The notes beneath the pieces are model-generated. The model ran no database searches. It was not told the DNA's origin and was given only the letters and a program-made list of their open reading frames with translations. Shown one piece after another: positions 51,758-53,404 of a DNA stretch of 64,000 bases (position 1 is its first letter; each line of letters begins with the position of its first letter). The DNA comes from Janthinobacterium psychrotolerans (lineage in GTDB: Bacteria; Pseudomonadota; Gammaproteobacteria; Burkholderiales; Burkholderiaceae_D): NCBI RefSeq assembly GCF_001677885.1, contig NZ_LOCQ01000054.1, forward strand, positions 124,001-188,000, in the 5' to 3' direction. The position numbers and the translations under genes were made by a program.

Positions 51758-52522
51758 ATGAAACTGAGCAATAAAACCGCCATTGTCACGGGCGCCACGC
51801 AAGGCATCGGCCTGGCCTGCGCCAGCCGCCTGATCGCCGAAGGCGCGCAAGTGATGCTGGTCGACATCAAGGAAGCCGGCGCAGAAGCGGCCGCCGCACT
51901 GGGACCGCAGGCGCACTTCTTCTGTGCCGACGTCAGCCAGAAAGCCGATGTCGACGCCATGATGACGGCCACCCTGGCCCGTTACGGCCAGGTCGACATC
52001 CTGATCAACAACGCCGGCGTGACGCACGCCGCCGATTTCCTCGACGTGACCGAAGACGATTTCGACCGCGTGCTGCGCATCAACCTGAAATCGATGTTCC
52101 TGTGCGGCCAGGCCGTGGCGCGCGAGATGGTCAAGCGCCGCAGCGGCGTGATCATCAATATGTCGAGCGTGAACGCGGAACTGGCGATCCCGAACCAGGT
52201 ACCTTACGTGGTGTCGAAAGGCGCGATCAACCAGTTGACCAAGGTGATGGCGCTGAACCTGGCGCCGCACGGCGTGCGCGTGAACGGCATCGGCCCGGGC
52301 ACCATCCTGACGGAACTGGCGAAACAGGCGGTACTGTCGAGCCCGCAGGCACGCCATACCATCCTGTCGCGCACCCCTTTGGGACGCTGCGGCGAACCGG
52401 AGGAAGTGGCCGGCATCGCCGCCTTCCTGGCCAGCGACGACGCCAGCTACATGACCGGCCAGACCATCTATGCCGATGGCGGACGCATGGCGCTCAACTA
52501 CACGGTGGCGGTGCAGGAATAA
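51758..52522 (+). CDS. short-chain dehydrogenase/reductase
   Basis: The 254-residue protein 'MKLSNKTAIVTGATQGIGLA' has the classical SDR motifs TGxxxGIG, 'DILINNAGVTHAADF', a Ser in 'IINMSSVNAE' and 'YVVSK' as the YxxxK catalytic pair. It ends 'GRMALNYTVAVQE'. It resembles the glucose/ribitol dehydrogenase-like group; substrate unknown. It starts 11 bases after the TPM operon and may share its transcript. Confidence 0.92.
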   Translation: MKLSNKTAIVTGATQGIGLACASRLIAEGAQVMLVDIKEAGAEAAAALGPQAHFFCADVSQKADVDAMMTATLARYGQVDILINNAGVTHAADFLDVTEDDFDRVLRINLKSMFLCGQAVAREMVKRRSGVIINMSSVNAELAIPNQVPYVVSKGAINQLTKVMALNLAPHGVRVNGIGPGTILTELAKQAVLSSPQARHTILSRTPLGRCGEPEEVAGIAAFLASDDASYMTGQTIYADGGRMALNYTVAVQE

Positions 52523-52573
52523 GTGGCGCGGACAGTTATATCAAAAAGCGATAATCGATATCTGAAAATACCA

Positions 52574-52672
52574 TTAGACACATATCGTGCAGCGCAGCAT
52601 AATGCACCTGTCTCCACTATTCTCCTCCAAGAAAATAGTTTTAAGCCCGCTTTCACCAGCGGGCTTTTTTTT
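52574..52672 (+). ncRNA. candidate small RNA A (about 60 nt) with promoter and terminator
   Basis: TTAGAC (52574-52579) and CATAAT (52598-52603) are 18 bases apart, so transcription would start near 52610. The RNA then has a hairpin ACTATT/AATAGT (52616-52621 and 52634-52639) whose loop holds CTCCTCC (52622-52628), complementary to a Shine-Dalgarno. An eight-pair terminator AAGCCCGC/GCGGGCTT (52643-52650 and 52659-52666) with a T8 tract follows. No ORF. The whole unit is intergenic. Confidence 0.5.
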
Positions 52673-52710
52673 GTCCTGCATTCCGCCAACTTTCTCCAGA
52701 AAGTCCGCAA

Positions 52711-52744
52711 CTGTCATCAAGCGGTCATCTTCACCACCTATACT
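52711..52744 (+). promoter_or_regulatory. Pho box and -10 of small RNA B
   Basis: CTGTCAT-CAAG-CGGTCAT (52711-52728) matches the tandem PhoB half-sites (7-4-7 spacing). TATACT follows ten bases later (52739-52744), the spacing of PhoB-activated promoters in which the box replaces the -35. Confidence 0.55.
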
Positions 52745-52750
52745 TGCTTC

Positions 52751-52914
52751 ATCTGCAGTACACGCAACCGATATGCGCGACGGCGGACAGGTGTGCCTTT
52801 ACCGGTGCACCACTCCCCTTTCAGCATCGTGGCGCCAGCTGGCGACATGGTCACCGTTTCTCAACTCTTGACCCATTTGGGTTTTTGCCCGCTCTTCGGA
52901 GCGGGCTTTTTTTT
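52751..52914 (+). ncRNA. candidate small RNA B (about 160 nt), Pho-box promoter
   Basis: From the predicted start the transcript would fold as hairpin GGTGTGCC-TTTACC-GGTGCACC (52790-52811), a pyrimidine-rich single strand (ACTCCCCTTTC, 52812-52822), hairpin CGCC-AGCT-GGCG (52833-52844) and a terminator GCCCGCTC-TTCG-GAGCGGGC with T8 (52887-52914). A 32-codon frame at 52773-52871 lacks a ribosome-binding site. The RNA ends 64 bases before the VanZ-like gene. Confidence 0.5.
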
Positions 52915-52978
52915 GCCTCGCTTGCGCAGCAACATGGCGAGCGCGCCGGCCACATGCTATTGTTGCCACCTTTTCGCT

Positions 52979-53404
52979 ATGCCACTCCCCATGCAAGCCA
53001 CCCTGACCCAGCTTTGTTTCGCCGAGCGCCATGAGCGCCTGCGCTTTCGCAGCGCACTGTTTCTGTATGCGCTGGTGATCATCATCGGCGACATTCCCGG
53101 CGCGCGCGCCGATGTGGGCCAGTACGCCTCGGGCGTGGTGCTGCATTCGTTCGGCTACGGCGTGCTGGCAATGCTGCTGTTCAGCGGCATTGCCGGCGGC
53201 ATGGCCCGCCGCGCCGCGCTGTCGGTACTGCTGGTGGCGGCGATGGGCGCGCTGGACGAATTCATCCAGAGCTTCTTGCCCTACCGCCGCGGCGCCGTCT
53301 CGGACTGGCTGGTCGACATCACGGCCGCCAGCGTGGTGGCCGCCGCACTGTACTTTGTCTGGCCGCGCATGGTCGCGGCCTGCTTGAAAAAACCGGTGCG
53401 CTAA
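52979..53404 (+). CDS. VanZ-like membrane protein
   Basis: The 141-residue protein has four hydrophobic segments and the VanZ-like end 'GALDEFIQSFLPYRRGAVSD', 'WLVDITAASVVAAALYFVW'. VanZ-fold proteins of this size are general membrane proteins, and glycopeptide resistance is not implied. ATG 52979 is used; ATG 52991 is an alternative. The TAA stop lies inside the 13-base duplication flanking a palindromic element. Confidence 0.85.
   Translation: MPLPMQATLTQLCFAERHERLRFRSALFLYALVIIIGDIPGARADVGQYASGVVLHSFGYGVLAMLLFSGIAGGMARRAALSVLLVAAMGALDEFIQSFLPYRRGAVSDWLVDITAASVVAAALYFVWPRMVAACLKKPVR

Follow-up and report, generated by a model that had tools for sequence, protein, structure and literature searches.

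Two predicted small RNA genes, one of them linked to a Pho box, in a single intergenic spacer of Janthinobacterium

The 64 kb window considered here (the whole stretch of DNA that was analysed, contig C9:124001-188000 of a 5.84 Mb genome) contains a spacer between a gene for a short-chain dehydrogenase (SDR) and a VanZ-like gene, in which two RNA units, referred to below as unit 1 and unit 2, are located (Table 1). An open reading frame that spans the spacer (52523-53404) was rejected as a separate gene, as it represents the vanZ frame extended upstream. The original prediction had described two units, each consisting of a promoter, an RNA and a terminator and neither containing a gene, the second of them with a Pho box, a -10 element and a terminator with a UUCG loop, and all of these elements are found at the places where they were described. 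By itself, a consensus scan of positions 52300-53200 is poor support for two units, as it yields 1 promoter-like site (0.4 expected) and 3 terminator-like sites (0.8 expected); it is their conservation across the genus that places both units above chance. The spacer is matched by all 36 of the other genus genomes in a sequence search (part of them over a fragment only), and the DNA identity of the locus with Janthinobacterium fluminis is 77-85%. The form GCCCGC..GCGGGC-TTT occurs twice in the window (0.01 expected), both times in the spacer. We infer that the bacterial family scanned in this work is the Oxalobacteraceae.

Table 1. Features of the spacer and its flanking genes (positions in the window).
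Feature	Position	Strand	Basis
5' flanking gene, short-chain dehydrogenase (SDR)			PF13561, PF00106 (Pfam match)
Spacer	SDR stop (52520-52522) to vanZ start at 52979 or 52991
AT-rich stretch 5' of unit-1 promoter (GTTATATC..GATAAT..GATATC)	52535-52574	+	Kept in genus (30-locus alignment)
Unit-1 promoter: TAGACA (52575-52580), 17 nt, CATAAT (52598-52603)	52575-52603	+	Consensus scan; kept in 30-locus alignment
Unit 1, RF02278 double-hairpin sRNA, 64 nt	52609-52672	+	Rfam 53.0 bits, cut-off 50; folding z-score -5.5
Unit-1 5' end UGUCUCC, predicted unpaired	within unit 1	+	Fold and sequence
Unit-1 hairpin 1, CU-rich loop	52616-52639	+	Fold
Unit-1 terminator, AAGCCCGC..GCGGGCTT and T run	52643-52672 (hairpin 52643-52666)	+	Sequence, fold
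Pho box, CTGTCAT-CAAG-CGGTCAT	52711-52728	+	Sequence; own-genome sites; kept in 30/30 genus loci
Unit-2 -10 element TATACT, 10 nt 3' of Pho box	52739-52744	+	Sequence, genus alignment, Pho-box scan
Unit 2, structured RNA linked to the Pho box, ~164 nt (start placed by means of the -10)	52751-52914	+	Alignment, fold, covariance searches
Unit-2 hairpin H1, apical loop ACCGAUA	52752-52787	+	Fold; covariation
Unit-2 hairpin H2	52790-52811	+	Fold; covariation
ACUCCCCUUUCAGC 3' of H2, predicted unpaired (holds ACUCC), candidate pairing region	52812-52825	+	Fold and alignment
Unit-2 intrinsic terminator, UUCG loop (hairpin 52887-52906 and T run)	52887-52914	+	Terminator scan; found in 30/30 genus loci
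3' flanking gene, VanZ-like			PF04892, 28.3 bits, slightly below cut-off 30.1

The RF02278 family (Betaproteobacteria toxic sRNA) consists of growth-inhibiting ("toxic") RNAs, and unit 1 is almost certainly a further member of this already known family. The RF02278 covariance model matches unit 1 over its full length (1-64 of 64) and above the gathering cut-off, and two hairpins together with a CU-rich unpaired 5' end and loop, which are characteristic of the family, are present in its fold and sequence. Unit 1 is invariant over its first 24 nt across the 30 aligned genus loci (own locus included), and conservation in this alignment extends upstream to about -70. The AT-rich stretch that precedes the promoter is a possible regulator site; it also bears a loose resemblance to the DNA preceding other RF02278 copies. 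The genome harbours eight RF02278 copies over the cut-off (unit 1 among them) and one weak copy. A GUCUCC motif close to the 5' end and a terminator of the form GCCCGC..GCGGGC are common to all eight. Five of the copies (L001, L003, L004, L006 and L007; stretches L039 and L040) lie within 23 kb of contig C5 (240582-263434), and comparable arrays are seen in other genomes of the genus (e.g., G017:C166 15819-23541). Two of the C5 copies are in tandem, 152 nt apart, whereas in Burkholderia the RF02278 RNAs are not in tandem according to the available part of the description (PMC5688073).

The closest known relatives of unit 1 are the RF02278 sRNAs of Burkholderia cenocepacia (ncS03, ncS05, ncS27 and ncS62) and Herbaspirillum seropedicae (Hsnc059/063/086/107), which it resembles in the full-length model match, the double hairpin, the CU-rich unpaired regions and the presence of multiple copies. 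In the accessible portions of the B. cenocepacia studies, RNAs of this type are expressed, at higher levels in starvation and in glucose medium, their predicted targets are genes of carbon transport and metabolism, often at ribosome-binding sites, and overexpression of ncS27 leads to slower growth (PMC5688073, PMC4603805); four RF02278 sRNAs are listed for H. seropedicae in the part of the survey available to us (PMC7011215). The S17 RNA of Bordetella pertussis, which we set beside unit 1 by its description only, is likewise reported to be homologous to the RF02278 sRNAs and to pair with, and thereby repress, a sigma-54 activator (PMC11722255). S17S is processed out of a longer transcript, whereas unit 1 appears to have a promoter and start of its own. 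By analogy with these studied relatives, the CU-rich unpaired regions of unit 1 would be expected to pair with the ribosome-binding sites of mRNAs.

The original prediction regarded the two units as a duplicated and diverged sRNA pair on account of a common GCCCGC/GCGGGC stem. The terminator stems of both units are indeed similar in the window; however, this stem is a trait of all eight RF02278 copies, and in 23 of the 30 genus loci the unit-2 terminator is GCCCGCG..CGCGGGC instead. When the terminators are left aside, the two RNAs align locally with a best score of only 12.0, and 282 of 500 shuffles reach this value. The units also differ in family and in distribution, unit 2 being rejected as an RF02278 member with 24 bits against the cut-off of 50. 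The units thus have only the terminator in common and the duplication, the least probable of all the readings considered here, is rejected. The remainder of the earlier interpretation, viz. two separate sRNA genes with the second under a Pho box, is upheld by conservation and covariation, and our best explanation of the spacer is that it holds two independent sRNA genes, with a probability of about 0.75 (a joint figure for the explanation as a whole). Outside the genus, an RF02278 member accompanies unit 2 in 18 of 39 loci, in 17 of them within ~350 nt upstream of the Pho-linked RNA and in one (L108) ~800 nt downstream, which indicates that the tandem belongs to a part of the family. In many genus loci (L014, L018, L028 and others) a short inverted repeat (GAAACATGGnCATTCTTGCCATG), absent from the window, separates unit 1 from the Pho box.

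Unit 2 is the stronger find of the two, and its existence as a real conserved RNA is hardly in doubt. It is laid out as a Pho box, the TATACT element, the hairpins H1 and H2, a variable middle and a terminator, and its folding z-score is -3.7. Across the genus (30 loci) the unit-2 sequences align over 164-186 nt, with a mean column identity of 86%. A model built from these loci (R1) matched 190 of 294 family genomes, a count that includes low-scoring matches, not all of which were inspected, and 39 of its matches in other genera were fetched as a family set; all 39 carry H1 with its loop region followed by H2, and the H1 loop ACCGAUA is near-invariant. In addition, a scan of named genomes with the H1 core identified 88 stretches, two of them in acetic acid bacteria (L153 and L174) and the others in Massilia, Telluria, Herbaspirillum, Undibacterium, Noviherbaspirillum, Herminiimonas, Duganella, Janthinobacterium and unplaced bins. 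The named set consists of the 80 stretches first listed (81 occurrences) and the 8 others, less L153 and L174, which gives 87 occurrences; it has 8 loci in common with the family set. L153 and L174 are probable chance matches that lack both the Pho box and the second hairpin and appear coding-like by eye.

The two-hairpin structure of unit 2 is paired in 92.2% of cells (n = 49 sequences, 46 distinct). Changes on both sides are found in 17 of its 23 base pairs, whereas shuffling gives 9.3 and sliding the structure no more than 7; the covariation score is 0.315, compared with 0.168 for shuffles and a maximum of 0.105 on sliding. These figures are tilted toward H2, because the ends of H2 were trimmed by folding before the test while H1 was left untrimmed. 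This covariation makes unit 2 ready for an RNA family entry. A covariance model of the two-hairpin 5' domain (R2) matched 179 of 294 family genomes in 19 of 44 genera, where low-scoring matches are again counted and not all were inspected. The same model matched 9 of 399 genomes in a sample of the order, all 9 from the same family, and 1 of 274 in a sample of the class, which is the own genome; no match was thus found in another family among the genomes sampled from the order and the class. No Rfam 15 family scores over its cut-off on unit 2 in the loci scanned, and the top match below cut-off is anti-hemB at the 3' end (52859-52914), with 28 bits against 49.5. Unit 2 looks like a new and strongly conserved RNA family, separate from RF02278. 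Several R2 matches per genome occur in some genomes of g47, which at a guess is Noviherbaspirillum-like: G271 has 7 (its listed contamination is also 7) and G255 has 4.

The sequence at the -35 position of the unit-2 promoter has the form of a Pho box, and inspection of the sequence revealed no -35 hexamer at the usual distance from TATACT. PhoB binds direct repeats termed pho boxes, as stated in the available part of PMC10294691. The pattern TGTCAT-N6-GTCAT occurs at 9 sites in the own genome versus 1 for a control pattern. Eight of these sites adjoin the unit-2 RNA and genes for a glycerophosphodiester phosphodiesterase (GDPD), a calcineurin-like phosphoesterase, Ppx, a phytase-like protein, CorA and two TonB-dependent receptors; the ninth (L053) was left out of the assignment of neighbouring genes. 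The sites at the two receptor genes (L048 and L050) are exact Pho boxes, and these receptors perhaps serve Pho-regulated uptake. A relaxed Pho pattern is present in 30/30 genus loci, 37/39 family loci and 69/79 named occurrences (0.08, 0.075 and 0.235 expected from shuffles); for a strict pattern the corresponding counts are 30, 32 and 54. With 6 of the 8 additional named loci the relaxed pattern reaches 75 of 87, so that it is missed by 2 of the 39 family loci and 12 of the 87 named occurrences. A conserved Pho box at the promoter is one of the marks of a PhoB-controlled gene, and unit 2 is very probably under PhoB control.

Based upon these results, unit 2 is probably a PhoB-activated and mostly trans-acting sRNA, with predicted transcription, predicted PhoB binding and putative targets. 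In low phosphate, phosphorylated PhoB would occupy the Pho box and activate transcription of the structured RNA from TATACT; in the window's clade this RNA would stop at its own terminator and work in trans, most likely pairing with mRNAs via the H1 loop and/or the unpaired ACUCC after H2, and this pairing would trim expression in phosphate starvation. The genes next to unit 2 vary between genera, which favours action in trans: the window's clade has SDR and VanZ in this position, and ManC-like and AraC, DUF3472 and ChaN, Ppx, UPRT or TctA are found elsewhere. Within the genus unit 2 also has the attributes of a trans-acting sRNA, viz. a promoter and a terminator of its own without a conserved reading frame. 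Every one of the 30 genus loci has the intrinsic terminator (3/30 on the opposite strand), and about half of the distant loci are without a detected one: it was detectable in 20 of 39 family loci and in 33 of 77 named occurrences, a count that leaves out two occurrences which are too short, as against 1 and 2 on the opposite strand. Several of the distant loci that lack it, e.g., in Herbaspirillum, have a C/U-rich tail or are followed by a convergent gene, which would be in keeping with Rho-dependent termination.

The loci without a terminator bear upon an alternative in which unit 2 acts in cis as a 5' leader, whose hairpins and terminator set the read-through of a PhoB transcript into the gene that follows, in this case vanZ and at other loci a different one. 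VanZ-like genes lie 3' of unit 2 in the window's clade, and in four g64 loci (L103, L113, L114 and L119) a VanZ-like frame, identified by eye, follows close behind H2 without a terminator, as if the sRNA and the mRNA had merged. Similarly, in the Undibacterium-type loci L111 and L121, the gene 3' of unit 2 is on the same strand, with no terminator detected in front of it; Pfam identifies this gene as ChaN in L111, and the one in L121 resembles it by eye. A leader role is therefore possible in both groups of loci. As a general account of unit 2 it is unlikely, given that a terminator precedes vanZ in every genus locus and that the downstream genes vary and in many cases are encoded on the other strand (Herbaspirillum; Undibacterium with AraC).

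The action of the proposed trans-acting RNA by base pairing is likely, if somewhat less firmly so than its activation by PhoB. Exact seed complements in the own genome amount to 6 and 5 sites, of which one per set is the unit-2 RNA itself, and no convincing ribosome-binding site was found among them. The lack of a convincing seed complement, as well as the covarying stem with its near-invariant loop of 7 nt, is also compatible with the binding or sequestration of a protein via H1. We consider this improbable, as no known protein motif was recognised in unit 2 and the accessible ACUCC appears similar to an anti-ribosome-binding-site stretch. It is far less probable that unit 2 encodes a small protein: the ATG at 52773 is kept throughout the genus loci, 13 of the 30 having a 37-codon frame in common, but no reading frame is kept in all 30, the frames of the remaining loci range from 28 to 80 codons with three lacking a stop within the 300 nt read, and the ATG lies inside the covarying H1 hairpin.

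RyhB-type sRNAs (RF00057) are trans-acting sRNAs driven by a nutrient regulator, an arrangement that is also proposed for unit 2, and the RyhB model scores 16-19 bits on units 1 and 2 against a cut-off of 55. We are inclined to regard unit 2 as the founder of an sRNA family not described so far, controlled by PhoB and acting in trans as the equivalent of RyhB for phosphate, which is found in most of the sampled Oxalobacteraceae genomes and recognises its targets or a protein partner via the near-invariant ACCGAUA loop. If this is true, the Pho-box-linked RNA would represent a post-transcriptional arm of the phosphate response in Janthinobacterium, Massilia, Herbaspirillum and Undibacterium. 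An Escherichia coli sRNA that, in the accessible text, is similarly raised by PhoB in low phosphate and is said to act on rpoS (PMC8829014) can be likened to unit 2 by description only, whereas in the sample of the class R2 matched nothing beyond the family. Among CC-licensed PMC papers, little was found on sRNAs directly under PhoB and nothing on a PhoB-driven sRNA in the Oxalobacteraceae; the available parts of PMC12131859 and PMC6337395 contain nothing on the unit-2 RNA, and those of PMC12506140 and PMC8565329 deal with sRNAs that act on phoB. The H. seropedicae survey, as far as its text is available, reports 117 sRNAs, 20 of them with Rfam matches (PMC7011215), and unit 2 may be among those without Rfam information.
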